Positions 21,668-41,794 are shown, counted from the first letter of the stretch. The stretch is DNA of 64,000 nucleotides from an uncultured Alphaproteobacteria bacterium (GCA_902574995.1 CACGPP010000005.1:32980-96979), one strand, 5' to 3'. Notes: generated from the sequence alone by a model not told the origin. Made by a program: numbers and translations.

Positions 21668-23422
21668 TCAATAGTTAGTAATCCATAGAGTTTGGTAAGC
21701 CTTTAGAGTAATTGTTGATTTAATATCAATGATTATCTCATTAGAAATTAAATCCCACCATTCGTTTGATGCTATTAGATTTAATTCTGACAAATCTAAA
21801 TATTGGAATACATTAGTTACATTACTTACACAAAATATCGACTGTCTTTTATCATGACTCTGTCTCCAAAAACCAAAAAAGTTCTTACCTAAATTAAATG
21901 TAAATTGTGTAGCATTTGGATGAAATGCAGATTGGTTTTTTCTAATTTCAATTAATTTTGATAATTGATTATATATTTTTGAATTAAAAGTATCAGTATT
22001 TGCAAGTAATCCATCAATTTCATCATACTTCCAAGTTCTTCTATTTATAGATCGATTACTTTTTGTTTGCTCTAACTTTTCATAGTCATTTGTAGAGCCC
22101 AAAATACTATGTATATAAAATGCTGGAATTCCCTCGAGTCCTAGCATTATTGCATGGCAACAAATAAATCTTTCAATTTGCAAATGATCACTTCCTTGAA
22201 ATGTACCTTTCATAGCATCTATGAGTGAGATATTTATTTCATAAACAGTCTCGGTGTTATCTGTTTTTTTTCTTTTGGTAGTTTTTGCTCCAAAATCGGT
22301 CATGATATCGACTAAGTTATTTCTTTCTTTTTCCGTTAAAATTCCCTCTGTCGGTCTTAGGCCAATACCATCATGAGAGGCTATGAAATTGAAATAAGAA
22401 GTGTGATCTTTTGCAGGAGGCATGCCCATAGACCATTTACGAAGAGCCGTGCTATCTCCCATCACAAGAGTCCACAGTAGCAAGGGTGGTAGAGCAAAGT
22501 TGTATACAGCATTTGCTTCATCGTTTTCACCGAAATAACTAAGATTTTCTAAATTAGGTAAATTTGTTTCAGTTATAAGTAAAGTATTTTTACTAAAAGC
22601 ATTGAGAAGTGTTCTAATTAATTTCACAACTTCATGAGTCTGTGGTAAGTTTAGACAGTTGGTGTCATGTTCTTTCCAAAGGAATGCAATGGCATCTAAC
22701 CTGAATACTCTAACACCATTTTTAAGATATAAATGAATTAACTTTATGAAGAAAAATAAAACCTCAGGATTTTTAAAATTAAAGTCAACTTGATCGTGGC
22801 TAAAAGTACACCATAAATAATAAATTTCTTTATTAATTTCAAATTCTCTAAAAAGATCTGAGCTTCTAGGCCGAACAACTTGTTCATAACCTTGTTTGTT
22901 TTTAAGTTTTATAAAAAAATTTTGTGTTTCAGTTTTATTTTCAATAAAAGATTTAAAATATTTACTTTCAATAGATGCATGATTAATAACTATATCACTC
23001 ATTATCCTAAAATTTTTTGATAGTGATTTAATATCTTTCCAATCACCTAAATCAGACCTTACTTCTTCATAATCAGTTATAGAAAATCCATCATCTGAAC
23101 TGTAAGGAAAAAAAGGTAGAATGTGTAAATTGTTGAATTGTTTTTTACAATACTTATCTAAGAACTTGCTTAGAGTTTTTAATTTATTATTTTTTTCTTC
23201 ATATATTGAGTCACCATACGTAATTAAGAAAACATCTTTTTGAGACCAATTAGGTTCAGAAATACCTAGGTCTTTATTTTGAAATAAATCAAGAACTCTA
23301 TTAATTAGTTTCAAAATTTCGTTTTGATCTAATATATCCTTGTAAATTATTTGGAAATGTATGTTTAGATTATTTTTTAATTCTTCTTGCACTTTAGGAG
23401 TTATCTTCCATGACGGCATCAT
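21668..23422 (-). CDS. GH13_18 phosphorylase (sucrose-phosphorylase family; probable glucosylglycerate phosphorylase)
   Basis: LHILPFFPYSSDDGFSITDY, nucleophile region VRVFRLDAIAFLWKE, acid/base ITETNLPNLENLSYFG, IASHDGIGLRPTEG; genomic context with GpgS/GpgP. Confidence 0.82.
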   Translation of the reverse strand: MMPSWKITPKVQEELKNNLNIHFQIIYKDILDQNEILKLINRVLDLFQNKDLGISEPNWSQKDVFLITYGDSIYEEKNNKLKTLSKFLDKYCKKQFNNLHILPFFPYSSDDGFSITDYEEVRSDLGDWKDIKSLSKNFRIMSDIVINHASIESKYFKSFIENKTETQNFFIKLKNKQGYEQVVRPRSSDLFREFEINKEIYYLWCTFSHDQVDFNFKNPEVLFFFIKLIHLYLKNGVRVFRLDAIAFLWKEHDTNCLNLPQTHEVVKLIRTLLNAFSKNTLLITETNLPNLENLSYFGENDEANAVYNFALPPLLLWTLVMGDSTALRKWSMGMPPAKDHTSYFNFIASHDGIGLRPTEGILTEKERNNLVDIMTDFGAKTTKRKKTDNTETVYEINISLIDAMKGTFQGSDHLQIERFICCHAIMLGLEGIPAFYIHSILGSTNDYEKLEQTKSNRSINRRTWKYDEIDGLLANTDTFNSKIYNQLSKLIEIRKNQSAFHPNATQFTFNLGKNFFGFWRQSHDKRQSIFCVSNVTNVFQYLDLSELNLIASNEWWDLISNEIIIDIKSTITLKAYQTLWITNY

Positions 23423-24605
23423 TAAAAGATTTTAAAATAGTTGGGTCAGCGCTATCAACTCTTCTCCAAGTTGGTATATTTGGATTTTCACTTGGTGAGT
23501 CTAGGAATATTTTTCCTGCTTCGATAATATTTTGTGCAAAGAGTTCAACCATTTCCTCTTCTTTGTGGACATCGAAGTTTAATCCATTCATCTCTGCATC
23601 TGTTTTATAAATCTGAACCATATCAAGGGCTAATCTATAATATGTTGCTTTTAGTGTTCTAAACTTCTCATTAGAAAATACATGACCTTGGGTAGCTAAT
23701 TTTCTAAATAAAGCTTTAGAAATATCTATTGTCATTTTAGATAAACCTTTTTGCCGATTATTTTTAGAGACCTCTTGGTGTTTATGTTCATAGGTATCTG
23801 CTATATCTACTTGGCAAATTTTATTATTAGCAAAGTTCCTATACATTTCAGAGAGTATTCCTATTTCAAGGCCCCAATCATGTGGAATTCTTATGTCATT
23901 CAATAAATTATATTTAAATGAAAATTCACCAGCCAGAGGATATTTAAATATATCTAAGAAATTTAAATATTCGTTAAATCCAACCATTTTTTGTAAGGAT
24001 TTAACTAAAGGTGTAACTAGTAACCTTGTCACTCTTCCATTCATAGATTTTTGAGCTACCCTAGGATAAAAACCCTTACAAAAATCAAATGAAAATTTTG
24101 GATTAGCAACAGGGTAAAATAGTTTTGCTACTAAATTTTTATCATAGGTGACTATGTCACAATCATGCATTGCAACAGATCCTGACTCTTTCAGAGAAAT
24201 TACAAATCCCATACAGTACCAAATATTTCTTCCTTTCCCCTTTTCAGCAGGAGCAAGGTCCATTTTAGATAAATGTTGATCTATTTTTTTTAATTTAGGT
24301 CCATCATTCCAGAGGATGTATTTTTTTTGAGGAAGTACTGAAAAAAATTTTTTAGCTTTTATAAATTCTTGTTTATTGGCTTGATCTAAACCGATAACAA
24401 TATTTTTTATGTATTTAACTTTTTTTAAAGTATTCACAATATATGTTAAAGCTGGCTTTTCTAATTCTGAATACAAAGATGGAAGAATTAAAGTCATGGG
24501 TGAGACTTTTGAGAAGTCTAAAAGTTCTTTTTCTATTTCCTCTATAGGTTTCGAATTAAAATTATGTAGGGTAGCTATAACACCGTTTTGATGAAAATCA
24601 GGCAT
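23394..24605 (-). CDS. gpgS: Glucosyl-3-phosphoglycerate synthase (GT81-like)
   Basis: GVIATLHNF...PMTLILPSLYSELE.PAL..IV, GKGRNIWYCMGFVI...VAMHDCDIVTYDK. Confidence 0.85.
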   Translation of the reverse strand: MPDFHQNGVIATLHNFNSKPIEEIEKELLDFSKVSPMTLILPSLYSELEKPALTYIVNTLKKVKYIKNIVIGLDQANKQEFIKAKKFFSVLPQKKYILWNDGPKLKKIDQHLSKMDLAPAEKGKGRNIWYCMGFVISLKESGSVAMHDCDIVTYDKNLVAKLFYPVANPKFSFDFCKGFYPRVAQKSMNGRVTRLLVTPLVKSLQKMVGFNEYLNFLDIFKYPLAGEFSFKYNLLNDIRIPHDWGLEIGILSEMYRNFANNKICQVDIADTYEHKHQEVSKNNRQKGLSKMTIDISKALFRKLATQGHVFSNEKFRTLKATYYRLALDMVQIYKTDAEMNGLNFDVHKEEEMVELFAQNIIEAGKIFLDSPSENPNIPTWRRVDSADPTILKSFNDAVMEDNS

Positions 24606-24607
24606 GG

Positions 24608-25441
24608 TTAAAAAATTTTATTCTCTAAAGTTTTATTTAATTTATACAGGACTTCACTCCAACCGTCAGGTGCTATCTTTGATGATTTAAAAACATTTTT
24701 TTTATTAAGACGCAATTTTGGATATGTGTCGGAGGAATTTTTTATCAGGCAGGAGTATTTACAAGAATTTAACATGTCAATATCATTTTTACTGTCACCC
24801 AGAGCTATAGTATTTATTGAGTATTTATCACGAAATTGAATATCATAAGCATGAGATATTAGCTTTTTAGCTATTCTTTTGTTGCATATAGAAGAAATTT
24901 GCATGAACCTACTCCCTTTAATCAAAACTCCATCTTTTTCAGATTTAAGATCTTTTTTAAATAGTTTTAATTTTGTTAAGTTATCTTCCCAAAGTATAAT
25001 TTGACTTGCCTCACGATCTAGCATCATATTAGTGTTATTCAAATTCGTGTATTTTTTTAAAATCTTTGGTGAAAGATCTTGGGCAATAAAAAAATTATAT
25101 TTTTTTTGTTTCAGTTTTAAAAATTGATACCAATTCTTTGAAGATAATTTAGCAATTCGAACACTCCAATATCTTCCAAATGAAGATGAGTTTTTAATTT
25201 TATTAAATCTTATTTTAGGGAAATATATAACAGCACCATTTTCAGTACTGAAAGGCATATTTAATAATTTTAATTCTTTAAGTAATTTTTTACATTCACT
25301 GTATGTTTTACTAGTATTAAAAATAATATCATTTTTGTTATTGATAATTGTAGATATCGTTTTCTTATTAGCTCCAAAGGAATAATTTTCATGATCAAGT
25401 AAAGTTCCATCAAGATCAGTAAAAATAAGATATCTTTTCAT
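24608..25441 (-). CDS. HAD phosphatase, mannosyl/glucosyl-3-phosphoglycerate phosphatase family
   Basis: IFTDLDGTLLDHENYSF, PFSTENGAVIYFP, NTIALGDSKNDIDML. Confidence 0.85.
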   Translation of the reverse strand: MKRYLIFTDLDGTLLDHENYSFGANKKTISTIINNKNDIIFNTSKTYSECKKLLKELKLLNMPFSTENGAVIYFPKIRFNKIKNSSSFGRYWSVRIAKLSSKNWYQFLKLKQKKYNFFIAQDLSPKILKKYTNLNNTNMMLDREASQIILWEDNLTKLKLFKKDLKSEKDGVLIKGSRFMQISSICNKRIAKKLISHAYDIQFRDKYSINTIALGDSKNDIDMLNSCKYSCLIKNSSDTYPKLRLNKKNVFKSSKIAPDGWSEVLYKLNKTLENKIF

Positions 25442-26292
25442 TTGTATGTAATTTTTTTAATTGATTGATTTTTATCTAAAGTTATTAAAACATTACAATA
25501 ACTTGGTGTTTTTAATGACATCCATTTAGATAATTTTTCATAATATTTGATAAATTGATGGAGCTTTTTTTTTAGATGAATACTACTCTTTAATGATCGG
25601 AGATCTAATTCTTGTTTATATTTCCAATCAATTACAAATTCCCAATCTGGTAATTTTATAAATAAATAATAATTGAATTTTTTAAAAAGTTTTTGGTAAT
25701 CAGTTAAGGCACTATTATAAGCAGTTCTCCAAATTAAATTTGAGTCATTCTTTTTTTCTAAATCATTAATGTTCACTTTTAAATATTTCATGTCGATTGG
25801 TTTTGAGCCAACACACCAACCCTCTAAAATTAGCAAATCTACTTTACTAATTTTTCTTTTATAATTTTTTTTGTTGTCAGTAACTTTATCAAATACAGGA
25901 ACATAGACTGGAAATTCCTTTTTCATTAAATTATTTGTTACTTTATAGAGTAATTTTAAATTGTGAGTGCCAGGTACACCTCTAGTTTCAAATAAATCTG
26001 TGTTGAATTTTCTTGCTAATCGTTTTCTTTGAAAAGATGATAGATAAAAATCGTCAATACTTAATATAACAACATTCTTTGAGTAAAATTTCAGAAAAAA
26101 TTTTTTAATTAGAACTGATAAAGTAGACTTGCCTGAACCCTGGGAACCTGCAATCATAAGTGTTTTCTTATGTTTTAAATGAGATAATAATTTAAGGTAA
26201 TGATCTTTTATTTCCTTTTGACTAACTTTCTTTCCTGTTAATCTTATCAGTGTATCTTGTGTAAATTTTAGTTTAGCTGTAATTTCTGACAT
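25438..26292 (-). CDS. D-glycerate 3-kinase (GLYK-type P-loop kinase)
   Basis: IAGSQGSGKSTLSVLI, LSIDDFYLSSFQRKRLA, FETRGVPGTHNL, ILEGWCVG. Confidence 0.85.
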   Translation of the reverse strand: MSEITAKLKFTQDTLIRLTGKKVSQKEIKDHYLKLLSHLKHKKTLMIAGSQGSGKSTLSVLIKKFFLKFYSKNVVILSIDDFYLSSFQRKRLARKFNTDLFETRGVPGTHNLKLLYKVTNNLMKKEFPVYVPVFDKVTDNKKNYKRKISKVDLLILEGWCVGSKPIDMKYLKVNINDLEKKNDSNLIWRTAYNSALTDYQKLFKKFNYYLFIKLPDWEFVIDWKYKQELDLRSLKSSIHLKKKLHQFIKYYEKLSKWMSLKTPSYCNVLITLDKNQSIKKITYK

Positions 26293-26394
26293 TTATAATG
26301 GATATTATTTTAGAGGATTTTTTACTAAAATTACATGTATCAGATAAAGTAAAAATAATCTTATATTTCGTTTAAAAAATTTATGTAACTTTAA

Positions 26395-27276
26395 TTAACC
26401 TTTTACAGCTCCAGCTGTTAGACCACTGATTAATTGTTTTTGAAAAAACCATATAATCATAAATAAAGGGGCTGTCGCAGAAACAACACTTGATACTGCC
26501 CACATATAATTTCCACCGTACTCTACTGTGCCGAGATAAGCATTAATTTTAGGCACCATCGTATAATTATGCTGATTAAGTAACAATGCGGTGACTGTAA
26601 AATCGTTATACGCCAACATCATACTAAATAAACCTGCCGTAACTACTCCAGGCCACATTACTGGCATAATAATATACCTAAATGCTTGAAAATATGAGCA
26701 ACCATCAATCAAAGCACTTTCATCTAATTCTTTTGGTACAGTTTTAAAAAAAGAGTACAGCAACCAAAGAGTAAATGGTTGGTTTATAGCTACCAAAACA
26801 ATAATTGTAGTTGGAAGTATTCCCCATATATTTAATTGGAAAAAAGGAAATAAGTAGCCTGATACTAGAGTAATATGTGGCATAGCTCTAAATATCAAAG
26901 CAATAATTAGAATATAAAAAGTATATTTGAATGTTGACCTAGACAAAGCATAAGCGCCTAAAGTTCCAAGAAACAATGAAATTGATACTACTGATACAGT
27001 TACAATCATTGTATTCATTGTAGCTCTTCCAAATTCGCCCTCTGTCCATGACTCTAAATACGCTTTAAATGTTGTAGTAGCACCTGTTTCAATTAAAGTA
27101 TTAAATCCACTTAAAGCATATGTCCAATCAGCTCTTGAGAAAAAATCTGCTTTTACTTTAAAGGAACCCCAGAGTGTCCAAATAAAAGGAAAAATTGATA
27201 TAGTAAGCCAAAATAATATAAAAATACTATTTACGATTATTATTTGTTTTGAATATTTATTGATTGTTTGGTTCAT
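26395..27276 (-). CDS. Carbohydrate ABC transporter permease (MalG-type)
   Basis: Six TM pattern and EAA loop DESALIDGCSYFQAFRYIIMPVMWPG. Confidence 0.9.
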   Translation of the reverse strand: MNQTINKYSKQIIIVNSIFILFWLTISIFPFIWTLWGSFKVKADFFSRADWTYALSGFNTLIETGATTTFKAYLESWTEGEFGRATMNTMIVTVSVVSISLFLGTLGAYALSRSTFKYTFYILIIALIFRAMPHITLVSGYLFPFFQLNIWGILPTTIIVLVAINQPFTLWLLYSFFKTVPKELDESALIDGCSYFQAFRYIIMPVMWPGVVTAGLFSMMLAYNDFTVTALLLNQHNYTMVPKINAYLGTVEYGGNYMWAVSSVVSATAPLFMIIWFFQKQLISGLTAGAVKG

Positions 27277-28305
27277 TTATCTTTCAGTTTTAAATTCTTT
27301 CCAAGTTCTAATGAGCACAGGTGTAAGTAAAAAAGCTATCCCTAATATTGTTAACATTGACGTGGCTCCAGCAGAACCAAAAAGCATTTTATTTTCATTT
27401 CTTAAGTCTTGATAAATCATCCATGATAATGATTGAGCTACACCCTCAGCAGAAAAACCAATAATAGGTTCGAATACTCTAAAATTATCCATTAAACAGA
27501 TTAGCATTATGAAAGTAGCCACAGGGTATAGATGAGGAATAACAATAAAACGAACGCGTTCAAATCTTGTTGCGCCATCAATGTAGGCTGCTTCTAAAGG
27601 ATCTTGCGGGACCGTCTGTAAGGCTGCATAAAAAACAACAAATGCAAATGGAGTATTATGCCATATTCCATAAATAATCAGGGTTATCCATGTTAAATTA
27701 CTCGAGGCTTTTAAAGACAGATTAGGGTCATCAAAAAGAATTTGGATGCTAGCTCCAATTATTCCTTGAGAGTCAATCATCCAAAACAATACTAAAGAAC
27801 CAATTAAAGGTGTTACAATCATTGGTAAAATTGTACCAAATACAATTAGACCTTTTAGATTCTTTGCTAAAGTATTAACACTTAATGCTACTATAAAACC
27901 TAATACTATCACTGGTGGAGTAACAGCAAAACAAAATGTTAGTGTAAATAATAATGCTTTATAAAAAGGAAGATTTAAAACAATATCTTTGAATTCACCT
28001 ATTGATGTCTTGTTATCCCATGCCTCTCTTATTTCATCAAAAGCTAAGTGATTTCTATCAGTATAAGTGCCAAAGCCATTAAATCTTCCTAATGGATTTT
28101 CAGCCTCTATTTTTTCTGTAGCCTCTACATCTACTCTAACATTTGTAGTGCACCCAAATGGATCACAATTTTCCACCTCCATAAGAACCTGTTCATTTTC
28201 AATATGAAGGGATTGAAAGAAACTAGAAACAATTGGTAAACCTATAAACAAAATCATTGCCAGAGCTGTAGGTAAAATAAACCAAATGAAAGTTCTGTGA
28301 GGCAT
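27277..28305 (-). CDS. Carbohydrate ABC transporter permease (MalF-type) with periplasmic insertion
   Basis: EAA loop LEAAYIDGATRFERVRFIVIPHLYPV; CDPFGC-containing loop after TM1. Confidence 0.9.
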   Translation of the reverse strand: MPHRTFIWFILPTALAMILFIGLPIVSSFFQSLHIENEQVLMEVENCDPFGCTTNVRVDVEATEKIEAENPLGRFNGFGTYTDRNHLAFDEIREAWDNKTSIGEFKDIVLNLPFYKALLFTLTFCFAVTPPVIVLGFIVALSVNTLAKNLKGLIVFGTILPMIVTPLIGSLVLFWMIDSQGIIGASIQILFDDPNLSLKASSNLTWITLIIYGIWHNTPFAFVVFYAALQTVPQDPLEAAYIDGATRFERVRFIVIPHLYPVATFIMLICLMDNFRVFEPIIGFSAEGVAQSLSWMIYQDLRNENKMLFGSAGATSMLTILGIAFLLTPVLIRTWKEFKTER

Positions 28306-28323
28306 TATATTTTTTTTGTAAAA

Positions 28324-28353
28324 AAGTGTGGAACTTTACTAAGATCCACACTT
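28324..28353. promoter_or_regulatory. Intergenic stem-loop between SBP and permease genes
   Basis: aagtgtgga-N12-tccacactt: perfect 9-bp inverted repeat. Confidence 0.7.
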
Positions 28354-28375
28354 AATAGAATTTATTAGCTTTGGA

Positions 28376-29611
28376 TTATAAAAAACCCTGCTCAGTAGCC
28401 TTAGCTATGTACGCAGCTTCAACATCAGCTAATGCTTTTTCGGCTGACTCATTACCTTGAAGAAATTCCACAAGTTCTGTGCTTAAAGCGCCGTGCATTA
28501 AGCTCATGTGTGGAAAACTAGGGTAAGGTGTTGTGCCTCTACTTGCTGCATCAACAACAGGCCCTGCTGTATCACCAGGTGTATAACCTTTAATCAACCA
28601 AACAGTTGCATTTGGGTTGTTATTGGCTAAATCAGTTGATGAAGCGGCTCCAACTAAAGCTCTAAATGAGGCCTCTGCATTTTCATCAGATGTATTTGTA
28701 GCAATTGCAATTCCATCCCACCAAAGAGTGGTTGCAGGTTTACTACCACCGCCTACAGTTGGTGATGGGGCTAATCTTGTATCAGCTTTGATATTTTGAT
28801 CACCTTCGTCATCAAGTAAAGAAGCTGCGCCTGAGTTCCAAATATGCATTAATGCAACATTACCAGACTCCCATTCTTCTTTAACAGCGTTTGTATCTTG
28901 TGTTAAAAAGTCAGGATTACTTAACTCAGTTAATTTTTTAATCATATTCAGTGCTGCAACACCTTTTTCATTATTCACATTAGGTTGCGCGGAACCTGAT
29001 TTAAAAAACTCACCACCATGACCAAGATACATATTTACAAACTCTTGACCAAGATTCCATCCTGATTTGAAAGCTCCTGCATATGGATTTTCCATTACTC
29101 CAGCTGCTTTAATTTTTTCAGCAGCAGCAATTACTTCTTCATAAGTAGAAGGAACAGCTATGCCTAAATCGTTAAGAATACTCTCTCTGTACCAAAGATG
29201 TTGTGCGTTAGCCATAAAAGCTACAGCATAAATCTTACCATCAATTGTAATCTTTTGATTATCATTTAAGTTTGACCCATATTTTGCAACTAAATCATCT
29301 AGTGGACGAATTAAACCGTCATTCATTAAAGGTGTAATTGAACCATTAGTAACTAATTTTGCAGAAAATTCAGCAGGGTTTGCTGATAAAGCAGCTACTT
29401 GTAATTTATTATGGTCAACAGAGTGCGTGACATTAAAATCCGCCTCTGGTCCAGCACAACTTTTTACTTCATCCATAAAAATTCTGTATGTAGTAAATTC
29501 GTTAGCTAAAATATTTATTGAACCGCTTGTTACACCACAAGGTGAATGGCTACCCGCAAAAACACTAGTAGATGCAAAAGAGATCAATAGAGCTATTATT
29601 AGTTTTTTCAT
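28376..29611 (-). CDS. Carbohydrate ABC transporter substrate-binding protein (COG1653-type)
   Basis: Signal peptide MKKLIIALLISFASTSVFAGSH; SINILANEFTTYRIFMDEV, GNVALMHIWNSGAASLL. Confidence 0.88.
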   Translation of the reverse strand: MKKLIIALLISFASTSVFAGSHSPCGVTSGSINILANEFTTYRIFMDEVKSCAGPEADFNVTHSVDHNKLQVAALSANPAEFSAKLVTNGSITPLMNDGLIRPLDDLVAKYGSNLNDNQKITIDGKIYAVAFMANAQHLWYRESILNDLGIAVPSTYEEVIAAAEKIKAAGVMENPYAGAFKSGWNLGQEFVNMYLGHGGEFFKSGSAQPNVNNEKGVAALNMIKKLTELSNPDFLTQDTNAVKEEWESGNVALMHIWNSGAASLLDDEGDQNIKADTRLAPSPTVGGGSKPATTLWWDGIAIATNTSDENAEASFRALVGAASSTDLANNNPNATVWLIKGYTPGDTAGPVVDAASRGTTPYPSFPHMSLMHGALSTELVEFLQGNESAEKALADVEAAYIAKATEQGFL

Positions 29612-29717: not shown

Positions 29718-30137
29718 TTATCTAAAACTAAGGCCCATTTGTTCGAAAACACCATGGTTATCGACCATCACATAATTATCCATAAATTTACCATTTTCTA
29801 TTGTCCAAAAATCAGAAAACTGCATTTTAATTGCCTTACCAGTTGGTTTTACACCTAAATAAGTTCCGCTATGAGTGCCAGTTAAATAACCTGTCGCACT
29901 TATCCAATTACCTTCTGCGACAACAATATCATTTTTTACATGATAGTCTGGAAACGCTTCATAAAAAGGTTTAAGAACCTTATATTTAAAATTTTCAATA
30001 CCGTGTATATCACCAAAACCTGGAGGTCCATGCCAAATCATATCATCATTCCAATATTTATGCTGTGCCTCTAAATCTTGTGCATTCAAGGCATCGTACA
30101 TATTTTGCAATAGTATTTTACTTTCATTTAAATTCAT
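29718..30137 (-). CDS. SnoaL/ester-cyclase (NTF2-like) protein, single domain
   Basis: DDMIWHGPPGFGDIHGIENFKYKVLKPFYEAFPDYHVKNDIVVAEGNW...GTHSGTYLGVKPTGK. Confidence 0.85.
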   Translation of the reverse strand: MNLNESKILLQNMYDALNAQDLEAQHKYWNDDMIWHGPPGFGDIHGIENFKYKVLKPFYEAFPDYHVKNDIVVAEGNWISATGYLTGTHSGTYLGVKPTGKAIKMQFSDFWTIENGKFMDNYVMVDNHGVFEQMGLSFR

Positions 30138-31273
30138 TTTTTTTCTCCTAAAATTTGTATTAAGATTGCCAATTCATTGAAACCAGTCCATTCTTTTGTG
30201 ATTTTATTATTTTTAATTTCCCATTGTGTAATGCCCCAAAGATAACACTCTTTATTAGATGGTTTTCCATAAATTCCATTTCCTTTGTGAGTTCCCACAG
30301 CGCCCCAACGAATTGATACTAAATAACCGTCTTTACTATTTCCCATCCAATATAAATCTTCAATACTTAGTGCAAGGTCAGGAAATGATGCAATTAATGA
30401 AATTATAAAATGTTTCAGCTTTGGTATTCCAACAAATTTTCGACTAGTTGATCCTTCAAATTTTATATTTTTTGTATAAACACTATCAATAGCAGAAAAA
30501 TTTCTTCTATTCCAAATAGTATCAAAAACCGCATGAACAAATTCTCTAATGTTTTTAATTTTATCAGGTATCGCGAAGCTTATGGGGTTTAACTTTTTAA
30601 TATTTCTTTTGGGTTTTGAATTTCTAAAATCAGGAGCAAATGGACCAATATTTCCTTTATTAGCAATTTGTTTTGCTACTTCATTTAAGTCTAAGCCTAA
30701 TTGTTTTATTAAACCTGCAGTATCATAAACAACATTTTCGTAATATATTTCATTATTTTTTGCAACACAGTTTGCAATACAGAACAACCTAACTGATTTA
30801 CCTGTTGGTTTGGCAAAATTGCTATAACCAGTGTTCGTGCCCGTAATTATAGTTCTGTGTGAAGTATGAAAACTAGTTTTGTCATCTCCTGCCCATATAA
30901 CCTCATCAGCATATAATCGAATATTTGGGAAGGCGTTGTTAGTATGAACTGTATCAGAGACTATTTTTTCAGATCCGAATTGTAATCCAAGTTCATCCCA
31001 AACACGACATTTTGGGCTATAAGTATCATATATATAACCAATATTTTTTTCTTCCCATATGCTGTAGGTAATTCTGACAATATAATCAATTATATTTTTA
31101 TATTGTTTTTCAAATCCCTGCATTGATTGAAATGGTAAATTTTTAGGGTTTGGATTTAAAGATTTAGCATTACCACCTCCGCCATAAGATTTAAGAGAGA
31201 TATCAAAATTTTTAGGCATATGATGATCTTTTAAAGGGATTGGTTTTAAATCTTTAATTAAAGTTTTTTTCAT
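30134..31273 (-). CDS. Two-domain SnoaL-like protein (type A)
   Basis: Two NTF2 repeats, GTNTGYSNFAKPTGKSVRLFCIANC and GTHKGNGIYGKPSNKECYLWGITQWEI; ATGA overlap with 29718 gene. Confidence 0.8.
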   Translation of the reverse strand: MKKTLIKDLKPIPLKDHHMPKNFDISLKSYGGGGNAKSLNPNPKNLPFQSMQGFEKQYKNIIDYIVRITYSIWEEKNIGYIYDTYSPKCRVWDELGLQFGSEKIVSDTVHTNNAFPNIRLYADEVIWAGDDKTSFHTSHRTIITGTNTGYSNFAKPTGKSVRLFCIANCVAKNNEIYYENVVYDTAGLIKQLGLDLNEVAKQIANKGNIGPFAPDFRNSKPKRNIKKLNPISFAIPDKIKNIREFVHAVFDTIWNRRNFSAIDSVYTKNIKFEGSTSRKFVGIPKLKHFIISLIASFPDLALSIEDLYWMGNSKDGYLVSIRWGAVGTHKGNGIYGKPSNKECYLWGITQWEIKNNKITKEWTGFNELAILIQILGEKK

Positions 31274-31368
31274 AAATAAATTTACTAATACTATTAAATA
31301 AAATTCAAAGCAATAATTTTATATAAAATGAATATTATTATTTTTTCTTTTGTATTATAAATAGACTA

Positions 31369-32373
31369 ATGTCCGATTTTCAGAAAGAAAAATCATTAGT
31401 ATTAAATTTTATAAATGAAGTTGATAATGCTAATGAGGATAACTTAATTGAAATAATTTCTAAGTATACATCTAATAATTTTAATATGAAATGTACACAT
31501 CCTTTTAACGAGATAATAGGCATTGAAGAATTTGTAACAAAATTTTGGTTTCCTATAAAAAAATCATTTAAGCCTATCCAAAGAAGAATGGATATCTTTT
31601 ATGCTGGCACAAATTTAGTTGACAATCATTCTTCAAAATGGGTTGTGAATATGGGACATTTGCTTGGAAGTTTTAATTTTCCTTTTTTTGACATTCAACC
31701 AAATTTTAAGACTGTAATGTTATGGTATTGCGAGTTTTATAAAGTCGAGGATAACAAAATACAAGAAGGTGCCTTTTTTTTAGACATTTTAAAATTTATG
31801 CAACATTTAAATTTATCAGTTGTCCCGGAGTCAACGGGGATGATTGGCTTTAATCCGGGACCTAAAACACATCAGGGTTTATGCTTTGAAAAACAAAGTG
31901 AAATAGAAGGAAAGAAAACTCTTGAACTTATAATGAGAATGGCAAATCGATTAATTGGTGAGGGGATGAGGACAACAATTCCTGATTTACAAAAAGACTG
32001 GCATGAGGACATGATATGGTGGGGACCAGGGGGTATTGGTGCATCATATACCTATGATGGTTATTTAAAAGGTCACACGGGTCCTTTTGAGGATAATTTA
32101 GATTTTATAGATTTCTCTGGGCATATACTTGAAAACTCAGAGGGAAATTATGGTGGATGGTTTGGTTGGCCAAATTTAAAAATGAAACCAAAAGGTAACT
32201 ACATGGGTTTCAAACAAGACACAAATCTTATTGGGGAGATGAGAGTTGTTGACCTTTATAGAAGAGATGGAGATAAAATAGCAGAAAATTGGATATTAAT
32301 TGATCATCTTCATTTTTTAAAATGTGTGGGTATTGATTTACTTGAGAGAAATAAAAATGAAAATTCTAAATAA
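31369..32373 (+). CDS. Two-domain SnoaL-like protein (type B)
   Basis: KDWHEDMIWWGPGGIGASYTYDGYLKGHTGPF; paralogous to 36241 gene. Confidence 0.78.
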   Translation: MSDFQKEKSLVLNFINEVDNANEDNLIEIISKYTSNNFNMKCTHPFNEIIGIEEFVTKFWFPIKKSFKPIQRRMDIFYAGTNLVDNHSSKWVVNMGHLLGSFNFPFFDIQPNFKTVMLWYCEFYKVEDNKIQEGAFFLDILKFMQHLNLSVVPESTGMIGFNPGPKTHQGLCFEKQSEIEGKKTLELIMRMANRLIGEGMRTTIPDLQKDWHEDMIWWGPGGIGASYTYDGYLKGHTGPFEDNLDFIDFSGHILENSEGNYGGWFGWPNLKMKPKGNYMGFKQDTNLIGEMRVVDLYRRDGDKIAENWILIDHLHFLKCVGIDLLERNKNENSK

Positions 32374-33496
32374 ATTTAGAAGCGAGTTTAGTACCCTCCA
32401 CTAGTGCAATAAGTTTTTCATAACAAATATTTTCATCAATTTTTCCAAAGCCTGCAAAAGTACTAAAGCCACAATCAGTTCCAGCCATTAATTGCTCTTT
32501 AGGCACTACTGTTGAATACTTAATTAATCTTTCAGCTACTACTTCTGGGTGTTCTACAAAATTAGATGTAGAGTCAATTACGCCAGGTACTAACACTTTA
32601 TCTTTTGGTAATTTAATTTCTTCAAAGACTTTCCACTCATGTGCATGTCGAGGATTGGATGACTCAATTAGAAAATATTTAACTTTTGATTTTAAAATTA
32701 TAGGTAATATTTTTTTTAGAGCTATATCATGAGTATGTGGCCCCTCATAATTACCCCAACAAATATGCATTCTAGTTTTTTCAATATCAACGTTTTTTAA
32801 AGCATGATTTAAACACTCAATTTGCATTTCAGCTTTTTTTAAAAAATCCTCCTCAGATAGATCTTTAAAATTCATATGCCTAGCTAGTGCTAAATCTGGA
32901 CAGTCTAATTGAACATGAATATTTGCATTAGTAATTTGTTCATACTCATTTGCCATAATACTAGAGAGTTTATTTAAATATTCATCATCGCTAGTGTAAA
33001 ATTTATTTGGCATAAAAACATTAATAACACCCGGTGATGCTGCATTCATAAATGCTTTTGCATGACCATACTTTTTTAAGGCGTTGCTAAAATTTTCAAT
33101 ATCATTTAACAAAGAAAAATTATCTTTTATTTTTAATTCATTGGTGCAACATGGTCTTGAATAAGTAGGTGTTCCTCCACTAATAGCTAACTTTTCCTTA
33201 TAGTCTGGAAAATCGTCTAAATCGGCAGGTGCTCTTCGTTCACTTTCTCCTGAAAAACCATCAATTCTATCCTTAATATAAGTAGCATAACTAATCTTGC
33301 TCATCTCACCGTCACTTATGAAATCTAACCCAACTTCAAGTTGTCTTTTTACAATTTGTTCAACATTTGAGCTTAAAATATTTCCAAATAATTTTTTGTT
33401 GTATTCTTCACCCTTATCCTTGGTAAAGAGATATTCTGATAGTTCTTTGGATCTTGGTAAGCTACCAACGTGTGTTGTCAAAATTTTAGATGCCAT
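32366..33496 (-). CDS. Cobalamin-independent methionine synthase C-terminal / epoxyalkane:CoM transferase-like zinc enzyme
   Basis: ILTTHVGSLPRSKEL, HICWGNYEGPHTHD, IESSNPRHAHEW, GTDCGFSTFAGFG (H-x-C ... E ... C zinc ligands). Confidence 0.82.
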   Translation of the reverse strand: MASKILTTHVGSLPRSKELSEYLFTKDKGEEYNKKLFGNILSSNVEQIVKRQLEVGLDFISDGEMSKISYATYIKDRIDGFSGESERRAPADLDDFPDYKEKLAISGGTPTYSRPCCTNELKIKDNFSLLNDIENFSNALKKYGHAKAFMNAASPGVINVFMPNKFYTSDDEYLNKLSSIMANEYEQITNANIHVQLDCPDLALARHMNFKDLSEEDFLKKAEMQIECLNHALKNVDIEKTRMHICWGNYEGPHTHDIALKKILPIILKSKVKYFLIESSNPRHAHEWKVFEEIKLPKDKVLVPGVIDSTSNFVEHPEVVAERLIKYSTVVPKEQLMAGTDCGFSTFAGFGKIDENICYEKLIALVEGTKLASKFI

Positions 33497-33501
33497 AATA
33501 A

Positions 33502-34203
33502 TTATGAATTGATAAATTTTTTATACTTATCTAAAAATTGTTTTTTCGAAAATTTTTTATTATTTCTAAAGAAATCAAAAATTATTTTTTCTTTTTTTAT
33601 CATTTTTTTAATAGCCAATGGTAATTCAATTAAAAAGTCTCTTTTTATTATAACAGCACCGTGTAAGTCTGCGTGAATAAGGTCGTCAGGTTTTACTTTC
33701 ATATTAAAAATATCAACATTGCAATTGATTTTATGAATTTGATTGTATCCATGCCCTACTCTTATTTCACCACTTAATATTTGAAACTTTCTATTTATCT
33801 CCTGTAAGTCCCTCATTGCTCCGTTTGTTATAGCTCCAACAAATCCAAAATTTAAATGTATAGATGCATTAAGTTCACCCCACCATGCACCAATTGTATT
33901 AGTCTTATCCTTATCCTCGATAACACAAATCTTTGGGTAGTTTCCTTCGAACATATACTCGTAATATTTATCTCTATTTTTAATTATATTTGTATTTTTC
34001 TTTTTTCTGGATGTAATAATCGCTGTTTTGGCAAAACCAATGATTGGTTTTAAACTTGGATTAATACAATGCATTGTTTTTTGTGTGTGTCCTTTTGATC
34101 GTAGAGTTGGATCTAATAATTCTAGTGAATTTGAGATAGTTGGAGTGTCATAATTTCTTATGTATTCAATAATTTTCTTTTCTCTTTTTGTTAGTAGTTT
34201 CAA
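33502..34203 (-). CDS. RraA-family / HMG aldolase-like protein
   Basis: GAWWGELNASIHLNFGFVGAITNGAMRDLQEI. Confidence 0.8.
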   Translation of the reverse strand: MKLLTKREKKIIEYIRNYDTPTISNSLELLDPTLRSKGHTQKTMHCINPSLKPIIGFAKTAIITSRKKKNTNIIKNRDKYYEYMFEGNYPKICVIEDKDKTNTIGAWWGELNASIHLNFGFVGAITNGAMRDLQEINRKFQILSGEIRVGHGYNQIHKINCNVDIFNMKVKPDDLIHADLHGAVIIKRDFLIELPLAIKKMIKKEKIIFDFFRNNKKFSKKQFLDKYKKFINS

Positions 34204-34206
34204 TTG

Positions 34207-35178
34207 TTATCCAGTTTTTAATAAAATTTGTTTCCAAATTGTTGTTTCATCAAATAGAACCCATTCATTTTTGATCCCTCTTGGACCAAATTCAGCCTGA
34301 GATATTCCCATTATATGAACATTTGCATTACTAGGATTAGAAAATAAACCAGGTCCTGAATGAATTCCCTCTAGTGACCATCTGATGGATGCCTTTTTAT
34401 ACTCATTTTTTTCCTCTAAATAGCATACATGTTCAACTTTAAAAATTGAATCCGGAAACATAGATCTTAGTGAAGACCAAAAACTCTTTACCTCATCTAC
34501 CCCTAATGCTTTCTTGCCTCCAGGCTGCTCTTGATTGACTGATCGATCATAAACTTTATCTATTATGTTAAAATTATTATTAAATATTTCCTTTAAAATG
34601 TTAGCATAATCTATTCCAGTATTATTTGTTGAGATCGGTATTTGTATATATTTTACTTCATGTGAGGTATCGTTATTAAAGGGAGCTGGGCATTTATCTT
34701 TACCGCCTTGATTTTCAATTACTTTTGCTGCATGTTTTTTAGGGTCAATATTTAACTGCCGAACAATAGCACCCTGGTCTCTTACAAGCCATTCATCATA
34801 AACCTGGTTATTCTTGCAAGCGCAATCAGCTATTACTCGATACTTGAGAGTTTTACCAGTAGCTTTTCCATAAATACCATCATTTAAATGCGTCGCCTTA
34901 GATAAAATTCTATGTGATGATAAATATCCATGTTCTTCATTACCAATCCAAATAACATCTTCGCCTAATAACTGTCGATCTGGAAATTCATTCAAAGTGG
35001 CATAAGTAGCCTTCACTACAGCATCAGGGCCATATATTACACCGTCTGGAGATCTAACTGGAATACCCTCAGCATAATAGTCTCTAATTGACTCAACATC
35101 TTTATTTTCCCAAATTTGATATGTTATTTTAAATATATAATCTGGTAGATCTAAAAATTTATTATCAAAACCTTTCAT
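34207..35178 (-). CDS. Two-domain SnoaL-like protein (type A)
   Basis: DLPDYIFKITYQIWENKDVESIRDYYAEG..., THLNDGIYGKATGKTLKYRVIADCACKN; paralogous to 30134 gene. Confidence 0.8.
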   Translation of the reverse strand: MKGFDNKFLDLPDYIFKITYQIWENKDVESIRDYYAEGIPVRSPDGVIYGPDAVVKATYATLNEFPDRQLLGEDVIWIGNEEHGYLSSHRILSKATHLNDGIYGKATGKTLKYRVIADCACKNNQVYDEWLVRDQGAIVRQLNIDPKKHAAKVIENQGGKDKCPAPFNNDTSHEVKYIQIPISTNNTGIDYANILKEIFNNNFNIIDKVYDRSVNQEQPGGKKALGVDEVKSFWSSLRSMFPDSIFKVEHVCYLEEKNEYKKASIRWSLEGIHSGPGLFSNPSNANVHIMGISQAEFGPRGIKNEWVLFDETTIWKQILLKTG

Positions 35179-35180
35179 TA

Positions 35181-36155
35181 TTAGAGGTTTTTTTGTCGTA
35201 TAATAAAGATACTTCCTTCTTGATTGCTAATATTTTTTAAACTTCTATTTGATCCTCTTGGAGACGAGAAAGAGTCGTTTGGTCCAATTGTGGTTTTTTG
35301 ATCATTGCAAGTTACTTCCCATTCACCCTCTAAACATAAATAAACTTCAGACTCTTTTAATGTGTACGGATGAATGTGAGCATTCTTACCATTTAACATT
35401 GTCAAACCAAAGCCAGTATTATGGTCTATGTTTGGCTCAAAATCTTTGTTATGAACATTAAAATGGTCAAGGTAATTTAAAATTGAATTAGAGTTATAAT
35501 GCTCATCATCTTTTAAATATTTATCCTTATTTTCATAACGTATTACATATTTTTCAATTTCTTCAGAAGTGTAATGATCGAAAGACTCTAGATCTTTTTC
35601 TTTAATAGGTTCAAGGGCAGCTTTTCCGTCTGGTATTTTATTTTTATCAAGATCAATTAAGGTATTGTCATTTAATAAAACCATTCCAGACTCTTTTGCT
35701 TTTTCTAAAACTTTTGGTGTCCATGTTATCACACCCGGATCATTTTCTCCAAGGACAACAAATATTAATGCGTTTTCATCACTTACATTTTGAAATCCTC
35801 GAAACATATTAGTGGGAAATGAAGCAACATCTCCCTTGTTTAAAACTACTTCGCCCTCTTTACCATCTGTGCCCCAATAAAAGCGCCAAGAGCCTGAAAA
35901 TATCAAAAATACTTCTGCAGTCGTGTGGCTATGAAGTCCCGATCCATTCATTGGAGCGGCACTTACTGCACCGATATTGAAGCCATGTTCTTCAGCTATT
36001 TTAACGTTTTGCTTGGTATCCTCACTCACTCCAGGGCCAACTATAGAATAATTCAGTCTATCTTGATGCCCTTTGAGCTTCCCTTCTACAAATGGAACTT
36101 TACTTGGAATTAGTTCATTAAACTTTACCAAACGACTGTTAATATCCTGCGTCAT
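35181..36155 (-). CDS. Bicupin protein
   Basis: Two cupin halves: GLHSHTTAEVFLIFSGSWRFYWG and HIHPYTLKESEVYLCLEGEWEVTCND. Confidence 0.85.
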   Translation of the reverse strand: MTQDINSRLVKFNELIPSKVPFVEGKLKGHQDRLNYSIVGPGVSEDTKQNVKIAEEHGFNIGAVSAAPMNGSGLHSHTTAEVFLIFSGSWRFYWGTDGKEGEVVLNKGDVASFPTNMFRGFQNVSDENALIFVVLGENDPGVITWTPKVLEKAKESGMVLLNDNTLIDLDKNKIPDGKAALEPIKEKDLESFDHYTSEEIEKYVIRYENKDKYLKDDEHYNSNSILNYLDHFNVHNKDFEPNIDHNTGFGLTMLNGKNAHIHPYTLKESEVYLCLEGEWEVTCNDQKTTIGPNDSFSSPRGSNRSLKNISNQEGSIFIIRQKNL

Positions 36156-36240
36156 TAATTAGAATTTAAATTTCCTCATTTTGTTAAATATTATTTAAAT
36201 TGTGAAGTTAATCAAAGTAATATTTATTTATATTAGATAG

Positions 36241-37350
36241 GTGAGGCAATATAACTTGAGCGAAATTAAAAATTTTGATACCGGTATTCCAATTAAAAGT
36301 GGGGCAAAAATTATAAATTTGGACCCTAAAGAAAATATATTAAATAAAAAAAAAATTAGAAATCTTCTCAAAAAAATTTCTGAGTCCAAAGATAGTGATT
36401 TAAGTCAAAATATAAAGAATGCATATCATGAAAATGCTGAAATCTATGCATTCCACCCTGTAAACCATATAAAAGGCATTGATGAAATAATGAATACCCT
36501 TTGGAAACCTTTACTGAATTCTTTTCCAGATTTAGAGAGAAGAGATAATTTAATAATTGGAGGGAGTTTTCAAGATAGGGTTTATGTCTCAACTGTTGGT
36601 CATTTAACTGGCACTTTTGTCAATCCATGGTTAGGTGTTCCCTCCAATGGAAAAACTATTCATTTACGAATTTGTGAGGTTCATCAAATAGAAAATGAAA
36701 AAATAATCAATTCTCATGTGTTAATTGATATAATGGATTTTATAAGGCAAGCAGGTTTTTGGCCAATTAATTCATCTTTAGGTATAGAAGAAATGTGGCC
36801 AGGACCCATTACTGGAGACGGAACAACCTTTGAAAACCTAGACTCTGATTTATCAGCTAGAACTCTTGATCAGGGTCTTACGATGCAAAGAAGTTTAGAT
36901 ATAAAACCAGAAACTGAGACTGGAGCTACTAAAGATAGTGTCAGACAGAAATTAATTAACCATCCTCAAAAAGATTATTGGCATCCGAAAATGATGTGGT
37001 ACGGACCATGTGGCATAGGCACTGCCAGAGGTTTAAAAGGTTTTATTGAGCATCATCAGCTACCATTTAGATTGACGTTTAAAGAGAGAAATTATTGGAA
37101 AATTGGCCATTACATTGAAATAGGTGATGGTAATTATTCTATGACAGGTGGTTGGCACAGTATTCAGGCTACACACGGTTCAAGTGATTGGCTCGGATAT
37201 GAACCTACTAATAAATTAGTTACTATGAGAGTGATGGATTTTTATTTACATAATGAGGGTCTTATTAGGGAAAATTGGGTACCAATAGATATTGTCCATA
37301 TTTTATTTCAATTAGGAATAGATGTGCTCAAATTAGTTCATAAGAAATAA
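36241..37350 (+). CDS. Two-domain SnoaL-like protein (type B; GTG start)
   Basis: [66 protein letters not shown]. Confidence 0.82.
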
Positions 37351-37352
37351 AA

Positions 37353-38678
37353 ATGACAGTTGAATTTATCAAAAAAAGTTTAAATGAAAAACAAAGAGCT
37401 GAAGAAAACAATAAAGTTAAAGCAGTAGTTGAGAACACTTTAAAAGAAATTGAATTAAAGGGAGATAGCTATGTAAGAGAATTATCAGAGAAATTTGATA
37501 AATACTCACCTAGTTCATTTAGATTATCTGAAGATGAAATAAGTAAATTAGTGGATGAAGTTTCTGATAATGACAAAGAGGATATTAGATTTGCACAAAA
37601 ACAAGTTCGATCGTTTGCTGAGGCACAATTAAAAAGTTTAAATGAAATTGAAGTAGAAACTCAACCAGGTGTAATTCTTGGACATAAAAATATACCTGTT
37701 CAATCAGTTGGCTGTTATGTTCCTGCTGGAAAATTTCCAATGGTGGCATCAGCTCATATGTCTGTAGTCACTGCTTCAGTTGCTGGAGTTCCAAGAATAA
37801 TAGCAACAACACCACCCTATCAAGGAAAACCAAATGCTGCTGTAGTTACAGCTATGAAAATGGGAGGAGCACATGAAATATACGTTTTAGGTGGAATGCA
37901 AGGTGTTGGAGCTATGGCTATTGGAACTGAAACCATAGAACCAGTAGATATGATTGTTGGTCCTGGAAACGCATATGTTGCAGAAGCAAAAAGGCAATTA
38001 TTCGGTAAGGTTGGGATCGATTTATTTGCCGGTCCTACCGAAACAATGATTATTTGCGATGATACTGTAGACGCAGAAATATGTGCTACTGATCTTCTTG
38101 GTCAAGCAGAGCACGGTTATAATTCTCCTGCAATAATGATTACTAATTCAAGAGATTTAGCAACAGAAACAATAAAAGAAATAGATAGACTGCTCAAAAT
38201 TTTACCAACAAAAGATACTGCTGGTGTTAGCTGGAAAGATTATGGTGAAATAATTTTATGTGAAAGTTATGATGAAATGTTAATGAAAGCTAATGAGATA
38301 GCTTCAGAGCATGTTCAAGTAATGACAGATAGAGATGAATGGTTTTTAAAAAATATGACATCTTATGGAGCACTTTTTTTGGGTGCAAGAACAAATGTTG
38401 CGAATGGAGATAAAGTAATAGGAACAAACCATACATTACCGACAAAAAAAGCTGGAAGATACACTGGTGGTTTATGGGTTGGTAAATTCATAAAGACTCA
38501 TACCTATCAAAAAATTACAACCGATGAAGCAGCTACAAAAATTGCAGAATATGGATCAAGATTATCATATTTAGAAGGTTTTATTGGTCACGCAGAACAA
38601 TGTAATGTTCGTGCAAGAAGATTTGGTGGTGTAAATGTAGAGTATGGAAAACCAATATCTAAGTTAAAAGATCAATAA
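37353..38678 (+). CDS. Histidinol-dehydrogenase superfamily, HpsN-like (sulfopropanediol 3-dehydrogenase type)
   Basis: [74 protein letters not shown]; motifs resemble remembered HpsN rather than biosynthetic HisD. Confidence 0.8.
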
Positions 38679-38708
38679 TATGTTATAGAGTTTATTTGAA
38701 TTAACAAA

Positions 38709-39767
38709 ATGGCTGAAATAGAATTACAATCAATAAATAAATATTATGGTAAAACTCATGTTATCAAAGATTTTTCTCTAAAAATTAAAGATCAGTCTTT
38801 TACAACACTCGTTGGTCCTTCTGGTTGTGGAAAATCAACACTCTTAAGAATGATAGCTGGTCTAGAGGAAATTAATTCAGGAAGCATTCTTATAAATAAT
38901 AAATCTGTTAATGACTTACCACCAAGAGATAGAGGAATAGCTATGGTTTTCCAATCTTACGCTCTGTATCCGCATATGACTGTATTTGAAAATATGGCTT
39001 TTGGATTAAAGATAGAAAAGAAATCAAAGGATGAGATAAATAGCAGAGTTAAAGAGGCAGCTAAAATATTACAAATCGAAGAATTGTTAGATAGAAAACC
39101 AAAACAATTATCAGGTGGGCAACGTCAACGTGTTGCAATAGGAAGAGCTATAACAAGAAAACCGAAAGTTTTTTTATTCGATGAACCTCTTTCGAACTTA
39201 GATGCTGCTTTAAGAGTTCAAATGAGGGTTGAGTTGGCAAAATTACATGAACAACTTGATGCAACAATGATATATGTAACTCATGATCAAACTGAGGCTA
39301 TGACACTATCAGACGAGATAGTCGTACTGGATGAGGGCAAGATTTCTCAATTAGGCAAACCTTTAGAATTATATAATAAACCAAATAACTTATTTGTTGC
39401 TGGTTTCATAGGTTCACCCAAAATGAATTTTATTCCAGCTAAATTTATTTCAAAAAACAAAAATGATATTGAAATAGAATTTTTAAATTCCAAATTTATA
39501 TTTAATTATGAAAATGATATAAATTTTAAAAAACAAGAAATCATTGTTGGTATAAGACCTGAAAATATCTACGTAAGTTTTGACAATGATTACAACTGGC
39601 GTAGCAAAGCTTTTGTTGTTGAAAAACTTGGCTCAAGTACTTTTATCTACTTAGATAGTCATGTTGAACCTGTGGTGGTTGAATGCGACGGTGATATTTC
39701 AGTTAAAACTGGTGATATTATAAATGTTAAATTTAACTTTGAAAAAATTATTCTTTTTAATAAATAA
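38709..39767 (+). CDS. Carbohydrate ABC transporter ATP-binding protein (MalK/UgpC type)
   Basis: GPSGCGKSTLLRMIAGLE, LSGGQRQRVAIGRAI, C-terminal TOBE-like domain. Confidence 0.93.
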   Translation: MAEIELQSINKYYGKTHVIKDFSLKIKDQSFTTLVGPSGCGKSTLLRMIAGLEEINSGSILINNKSVNDLPPRDRGIAMVFQSYALYPHMTVFENMAFGLKIEKKSKDEINSRVKEAAKILQIEELLDRKPKQLSGGQRQRVAIGRAITRKPKVFLFDEPLSNLDAALRVQMRVELAKLHEQLDATMIYVTHDQTEAMTLSDEIVVLDEGKISQLGKPLELYNKPNNLFVAGFIGSPKMNFIPAKFISKNKNDIEIEFLNSKFIFNYENDINFKKQEIIVGIRPENIYVSFDNDYNWRSKAFVVEKLGSSTFIYLDSHVEPVVVECDGDISVKTGDIINVKFNFEKIILFNK

Positions 39768-39790
39768 AAATTATAATTGTAAATGTATAT

Positions 39791-40558
39791 ATGTATTTGA
39801 AAAATTTTAATTTAAAAAATAAAACAGCACTTGTAACTGGAGCTGGTAAAGGTATCGGAAAAGCATGTGCTATTGCTTTGGCACAAGCAGGTGCAGATTT
39901 AATAATCATAAGTAGAACTAAAAAAGATTTATTGGGCGTGCAAAAAAAAATTATTTCATATAAAAGAAAATGTACATTTTTTGAATGTGATTTATTTGAT
40001 ATAGAAAAATTAGATACTGTTTTTAAAAAAATTAGAAAAATTGATATTCTTGTCAATAATGCAGGAACAAATCGTCCAGCGCATTTTACTAAAATTAAAA
40101 GAGAAGATATGGATTACATGATAGATCTTAATTTAAAAATAGCTTTTCATGTTGCCCAATTATCAATCAAGAAAATGATGGTAAACAAAAATAGAAAATC
40201 TATAGGAGGAAGTATAATTAATATGTCTTCTCAATTAGGAAAAGTTGGCGCGCCTAACAGAAGCATTTATAATATGTCAAAATTTGGAATAGAAGGTTTA
40301 ACAAAAGGTATGGCTTTAGATTTAGCTGCGAAAAATATTCGTGTGAACTCTATTTGCCCAACCTTTGTAGAAACACCAATGGTAAAAAAATTTTTTAAAG
40401 ATAAAAAATTTAAAGATATGGTATTAAAAAATATACCTCTTGGTCGATTAGCTAAAGAGAGTGATATTGCAACTGCAACAGTTTATTTAGCTTCTAATGC
40501 ATCTTCAATGATTACAGGGACATCTTTAGTTATTGACGGCGGTTGGACAGCACAATAA
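39791..40558 (+). CDS. Short-chain dehydrogenase/reductase
   Basis: ALVTGAGKGIGKACAIALAQAGA, LVNNAGTN, YNMSKFGIEGL, VIDGGWTAQ. Confidence 0.93.
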   Translation: MYLKNFNLKNKTALVTGAGKGIGKACAIALAQAGADLIIISRTKKDLLGVQKKIISYKRKCTFFECDLFDIEKLDTVFKKIRKIDILVNNAGTNRPAHFTKIKREDMDYMIDLNLKIAFHVAQLSIKKMMVNKNRKSIGGSIINMSSQLGKVGAPNRSIYNMSKFGIEGLTKGMALDLAAKNIRVNSICPTFVETPMVKKFFKDKKFKDMVLKNIPLGRLAKESDIATATVYLASNASSMITGTSLVIDGGWTAQ

Positions 40559-40588
40559 TAATTATTTTAAATAAATTTTACAAGTAAT

Positions 40589-41717: not shown

Positions 41718-41794
41718 TGGCGCGCTCTGCAGGATTCGAACCTGCGACCCTCTGCTTAGAAGGCAGATGCTCTATCCAGCTGAGCTAAGAGCGC
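41718..41794 (-). tRNA. tRNA-Arg (anticodon TCT), CCA encoded
   Basis: Minus strand: gcgctcttagctcagctggatagagcatctgccttctaagcagagggtcgcaggttcgaatcctgcagagcgcgcca. Confidence 0.93.

Follow-up and report, generated by a model that had tools for sequence, protein, structure and literature searches.

Comparative genomics points to a four-gene glucosylglycerate cycle, and a probably unrelated neighbouring ABC transporter, in a HIMB59-type alphaproteobacterium

Does a bacterium that carries genes to make and to recycle glucosylglycerate (GGa) beside an ATP-binding cassette (ABC) sugar transporter also import that solute? This question is raised by a 64,000-nucleotide stretch of DNA (the window) in which seven intact open reading frames (ORFs), all on the minus strand, occupy positions 21668-29611. 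In transcription order, they are predicted to encode a substrate-binding protein (SBP), two permeases (permF and permG), a D-glycerate 3-kinase (GLYK), a glucosyl-3-phosphoglycerate phosphatase (GPGP), a glucosyl-3-phosphoglycerate synthase (GpgS) and a glucosylglycerate phosphorylase (GGaP). An earlier note on this DNA listed the same seven genes at the same place, which our analysis bears out, and read them as one operon for synthesis, salvage and uptake of GGa. Our comparisons indicate that the GGa system is very probably the four-gene unit GLYK-GPGP-GpgS-GGaP, and that the SBP and permeases next to it travel as cargo within a 15-kb block of other genes. The basis of all gene identities and of the genomic history is sequence, from which we infer the enzyme activities, the accumulation of the solute and the substrate of the transporter.

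The window was assigned to a HIMB59/AEGEAN-169 alphaproteobacterium on the strength of its relatives, among them single-cell genomes and "alpha proteobacterium HIMB59 MED-G104". Its assembly (G000) consists of 1.16 Mb in 22 contigs and is 74% complete. We compared 52 genomes of the same genus, and a class-wide sample of 289 genomes in which homologues of the SBP and GGaP were counted at E <= 1e-60. In the window, a 102-bp gap divides the seven genes into two compact groups: the gaps are 70 bp between SBP and permF, 0 between permF and permG, and 102 bp between permG and GLYK, and those that follow are -4 (GLYK-GPGP), +2 (GPGP-GpgS) and -29 bp (GpgS-GGaP). The data support synthesis and recycling in one operon; an operon that spans all seven genes is putative. 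Scans for promoters and terminators gave signals no better than those in shuffled sequences. No ATPase gene was found within 21668-29611; one of the MalK/UgpC type lies on the opposite strand in the 15-kb block (Table 1), which fills the space between a tRNA-Arg gene and GLYK and holds the SBP, the two permeases, the ATPase, a HisD-like dehydrogenase, five SnoaL proteins and others.

Comparison of same-genus genomes revealed that the transporter and the GGa genes are often apart. Just 15 of the 52 genomes (the window's and those of 14 relatives) have the SBP no more than 6 kb from GpgS, and no transporter is present between GLYK and livG in many sister loci (L015, L016, L019, L020, L023-L025, L027, L028, L032 and L041, among others). 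In six genomes (G046, G012, G015, G033, G021 and G020) the transporter, at 88-95% identity, was observed at another locus without GGa genes, surrounded as far as the contigs reach by the series SnoaL1/2/3-MetE-like-RraA-SnoaL4-cupin. In one of them, G046, a distance of 85 kb separates the two loci, which share a contig; in four of the six, the genes that come after permG encode a TauD-family dioxygenase and an aldehyde dehydrogenase. The block's SBP is interrupted by a stop codon in G007. The block also has the position of a genomic island, between the 3' end of a tRNA and the next gene, and many sister genomes lack it there.

The same association was observed at greater distance. Outside the genus, SBP homologues adjoin varying combinations of HisD (73-83% identity), SnoaL, SDR, LacI and MetE-like genes, and often MalK; GGaP homologues there adjoin GpgS and GPGP, and no GGa genes were found beside SBP homologues in the neighbourhoods examined. 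None of the genomes sampled outside the genus had homologues of both SBP and GGaP (17 of the 289 had the former and 8 the latter), a result that is weak alone because only ~0.5 such genomes would be expected by chance. What stays linked to the SBP and permeases across genomes is the HisD/SnoaL block, not the GGa genes. Members of the SBP family have invariant residues in common, such as the WWDG and NAQH stretches, which suggests that they share one ligand. Overall, the adjacent importer is probably not a GGa importer, and the uptake read into the operon by the earlier note appears to be an artefact of the two gene sets being neighbours in this lineage, as the transporter is absent here in many sisters, sits elsewhere with its own block in others, and never accompanies GGa genes in distant alphaproteobacteria. 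The SBP and permeases most likely import a substrate of the block's own HisD-like/SnoaL/MetE-like pathway, and would be energized by the block's MalK or by another MalK; the transporter may take GGa accidentally.

Table 1. Features of the GGa locus and its surroundings (positions in the window).
Feature	Position	Strand	Basis or context
p423, exported helical protein with apparent signal peptide, 423 aa	20362..21633	-	34 bp 3' of GGaP; operon membership doubtful
GGaP, predicted glucosylglycerate phosphorylase (GH13_18), 584 aa	21668..23422	-	YcjM identity, motifs, catalytic triad
GpgS, predicted glucosyl-3-phosphoglycerate synthase, 403 aa	23394..24605	-	NF040724, alignment with solved GpgS
GPGP, predicted glucosyl-3-phosphoglycerate phosphatase (HAD-IIB, MPGP/GPGP family), 277 aa	24608..25441	-	NF001218, HAD motifs
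GLYK, predicted D-glycerate 3-kinase (P-loop), 284 aa	25438..26292	-	Solved relatives 1odf, 7xpc, 6ckg
Boundary between the block and the GGa operon of four genes	26293..26394	-	GLYK directly after tRNA-Arg here in sister loci
permG, ABC permease of the block	26395-27276	-	BPD_transp_1; travels with SBP and SnoaL/HisD block
permF, ABC permease of the block	27277-28305	-	BPD_transp_1; travels with SBP and SnoaL/HisD block
SBP, sugar-type ABC substrate-binding protein of the block	28376-29611	-	SBP_bac_1
SnoaL1, SnoaL2, (SnoaL3, + strand), Meth_synt_2/MetE-like, RraA-like aldolase, SnoaL4, two-domain cupin	29718..36155	-	Kept transporter partners
SnoaL5, HisD-like dehydrogenase, MalK/UgpC-type ATPase (38709-39767), SDR, HAD phosphatase	36241..41245	+	Kept partners in other genomes
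tRNA-Arg(TCT), integration hotspot, 3' end facing the block	41718..41794	-	

The identities proposed earlier for the four enzymes were upheld by family profiles, motifs and solved relatives. Family searches placed GGaP in GH13 with sucrose-phosphorylase-like matches. What sets enzymes of the GGaP type apart from sucrose phosphorylase is a (T/S)ETN motif together with a loop-A Glu that replaces Gln (PMC7178133). The window's protein has TETN at 284-287 (ITETN 283-287), as does Escherichia coli YcjM and in agreement with 11 homologues, and VYEIN with Glu395 aligned to the YQ of sucrose and glucosylglycerol phosphorylases. Its GH13 catalytic triad is complete (Asp243, Glu285, Asp351), and it is 36% identical to YcjM, which is annotated as a glucosylglycerate phosphorylase. 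These features support its assignment to the glucosylglycerate phosphorylases (GH13_18, EC 2.4.1.352). GpgS matched NF040724 over its full length (positions 2-399 of 402) with 353 bits, which does not reach that model's curated cut-off of 700; in alignment with solved GpgS its GKG, DxD, KGFY, GE and EIG blocks match, and its donor-site DCD corresponds to DSD there. The phosphatase matched NF001218 with 184 bits, has the HAD motifs DLDGT and GDSKND, and has solved MPGP relatives. We infer its preference for the glucosyl over the mannosyl substrate solely from its position beside GpgS, as its sequence does not decide between them. The best solved relatives of GLYK are yeast 1odf and the D-glycerate 3-kinases 7xpc and 6ckg, in keeping with kinship to plant and fungal GLYK.

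As these four assignments hold, the tight unit would encode the closed loop that had been proposed. GpgS would join glucose from a nucleoside diphosphate (NDP)-glucose to 3-phosphoglycerate, and the phosphatase would then free GGa; GGaP would convert GGa and phosphate to glucose 1-phosphate (Glc1P) and D-glycerate, and GLYK would return D-glycerate to 3-phosphoglycerate. The cycle probably serves to provide a nitrogen-free compatible solute that can be drawn down again, with its carbon regained as Glc1P and 3-phosphoglycerate. "Self-contained", the term used for the cycle at first, is too strong, since NDP-glucose supply and the interconversion of Glc1P and glucose 6-phosphate (Glc6P) are encoded elsewhere. 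The accompanying warning of futile cycling is fair: by arithmetic, a full turn including Glc1P re-activation amounts to NTP + ATP -> NDP + ADP + PPi (NTP, nucleoside triphosphate; PPi, pyrophosphate), or two NTP. The tight union of synthesis and recycling genes would argue for control at the level of the enzymes rather than through separate promoters. A phosphoglucomutase was reported lacking in AEGEAN-169 (PMC10308909). Besides GlmM, G001 has a PgmG-like phosphoglucomutase/phosphomannomutase (L070:940-2334) that scored 450 bits with NF046027, for which the cut-off is 600, and a second member of this family was found in many relatives; Glc1P probably reaches Glc6P through the PgmG-like enzyme. 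The idea that Glc1P is forced to stay in the loop for want of a phosphoglucomutase was rejected as unsafe because of these genes in G001 and in many relatives.

GpgS and GGaP are neighbours in 34 of the 38 genomes, among the 52 compared, that showed both. In G001 (complete, 99%), G007 and G005 (by contig placement) the synthesis genes, three in number, make up an operon apart, beside an exonuclease-like gene (by eye) and an RmlA-like nucleotidyltransferase. In G001 and G007, GGaP is part of a glycoside operon that includes glycosidases and a transporter of its own, and in G005 it lies directly behind tRNA-Arg; in HIMB59 itself, synthesis and phosphorolysis genes are likewise at separate loci. 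Given the split loci in G001, G007 and G005, the arrangement in the window is an assembled one. In more distant alphaproteobacteria GPGP, GpgS and GGaP occur together, with a GLYK homologue adjoining in L111 and a lookalike of MOFRL-type glycerate kinase (by eye) in L109. A decaying copy of the cycle was observed in G021 (G021:C30), where GpgS and GGaP are close, GGaP is broken by several stop codons and GpgS was matched in two pieces.

Several observations weigh against our reading of the locus. In the window's lineage GLYK follows permG on the same strand after 102 bp, and read-through from permG with later co-option of the transporter is possible. The GpgS score of 353 is under the curated NCBIfam cut-off of 700, and the predicted phosphatase could prefer either the glucosyl or the mannosyl substrate. 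In addition, neither an attachment repeat nor a tRNA remnant was found at the window junction (26.3 kb), so that the mobility of this block is deduced from relatives.

If GGa is imported at all, a possible, though not a probable, route is a transporter of the agl type that is encoded at another place in the genome (G000:C2, L073). This transporter shares an apparent operon with GGaP and GH4 and GH1 glycosidases in G001 and G007 (the order in L056 and L058 is SBP-perm-perm-GH4-MalK-GH1-GGaP), and its ortholog in G000 is 82% identical. In place of GGaP, however, the G000 operon contains a second MalK and what by eye is a GH42-like gene; other glycosides are therefore equally likely substrates. 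It is unlikely that GGaP acts mainly in synthesis, making GGa and phosphate from Glc1P and glycerate as a second, phosphate-releasing route in phosphate-poor water, with GLYK competing for the glycerate. Phosphorolysis is reversible and synthesis is efficient in vitro (PMC11009771), but a complete GpgS/GPGP route is present in the same operon, and kinase and phosphorylase together fit salvage better. Also improbable is a single seven-gene operon whose transporter imports GGa as solute and carbon source, as the earlier note had it: the shared strand and adjacency in 15 genomes, the ABC sugar transporters beside GGaP in E. coli (ycjMNOP) and in the HIMB59-like G001 and G007, and the putative transporter adjoining the Prochlorococcus GGa operon (PMC11631117) are set against the separations described above, an ATPase in the block's divergent part, and an SBP that shows essentially no similarity to YcjN (E 0.002 for a match of 29 residues) and that, across 178 residues, shares just 20% identity with the agl-type SBP (L073:3316-4626).

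The four-gene unit is a new example of a cluster type already described. The GGaP clusters of Meiothermus silvanus and Spirochaeta thermophila likewise combine glycerate kinase, GpgS or GpgP with GGaP and have the same proposed role of lowering GGa (PMC7178133); here, by comparison, all four genes are in one tight unit behind tRNA-Arg, in HIMB59-type bacteria. The Prochlorococcus GGa operon also unites genes for de novo synthesis and recycling, and uptake was hypothesized there from an adjacent transporter whose expression rises with the recycling genes (PMC11631117), whereas the ABC transporter in the window belongs to another conserved locus. In the E. coli ycjMNOP...V cluster an SBP and two permeases adjoin YcjM (GGaP), as in the window; however, that cluster is without GpgS, GPGP and GLYK, and YcjN is no close relative of the window's SBP. 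GGa synthesis genes, proposed to provide a nitrogen-sparing osmolyte, are also found in offshore SAR11 genera, streamlined open-ocean alphaproteobacteria of another group (Pelagibacteraceae), in a paper that does not mention the phosphorylase (PMC12636525). The word "glucosyl" is absent from the text of the AEGEAN-169 genome paper (PMC10308909), and the GGa unit is unreported there for the clade. A complete unit for making and recycling GGa is now placed in an abundant open-ocean lineage. These data also indicate that adjacency is an unsafe guide to transporter substrate: comparison of 52 relatives separated importer from pathway, and the ligand question is thereby redirected to another ligand for the window's SBP and another SBP for GGa.

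The transporter-HisD-SnoaL-SDR-MetE-like-RraA-cupin locus (29718-41245) is itself conserved and occurs widely among alphaproteobacteria; it encodes as many as five SnoaL proteins, and a literature search for a HisD/SnoaL/ABC locus found no paper. Neighbours of the transporter block in sister species include genes for a TauD dioxygenase, an aldehyde dehydrogenase and a homocysteine S-methyltransferase. At the other end of the GGa genes, the p423 gene is present at some sister loci only. Its product had no Pfam, PDB, phage or viral match; its predicted structure, of low confidence (pLDDT 49, pTM 0.56), weakly resembles PL5 alginate-lyase-type alpha barrels, with no structural match at E <= 0.001.

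In at least 12 sister loci, GLYK begins a constant ~10 nt past the CCA of tRNA-Arg(UCU) (e.g., L015:7047-7134), and these ~10 nt in block-free relatives leave no room for a promoter or an ordinary leader. We tentatively hypothesize, while considering it less probable than otherwise, that the GGa cycle in those relatives is a tRNA-mRNA dicistron that follows tRNA transcription and processing, and that in the window the block's own transcription replaces that control. If true, insertion of the block rewired a compatible-solute cycle. Identity among relatives (L009-L046) is 89-100% for GpgS and 67-99% for GLYK (25438-26292), a mosaic pattern in which the far greater divergence of GLYK suggests repeated allelic exchange near the junction.

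An integrase and a flanking tRNA repeat, which are absent from the window itself, were observed at the same tRNA in G045 (both) and L018 (the repeat). The G045 element is 8.4 kb long and carries a tyrosine recombinase; the full tRNA-Arg flanks it on one side and a 45-nt repeat of the tRNA's 3' part (length by eye) on the other. It spans L075:13520 to L117:3410, and ORFs at its far end may encode DNA methyltransferases (weak MmeI-type match). In L018, a 46-nt copy of the tRNA 3' part immediately precedes GLYK and ends a different insert (L018:1-7133) that encodes a DUF1376-like protein and unknown ORFs. G050 has extra genes at tRNA-Arg: two are SDR-like, and others look by eye like genes for KDO synthesis.

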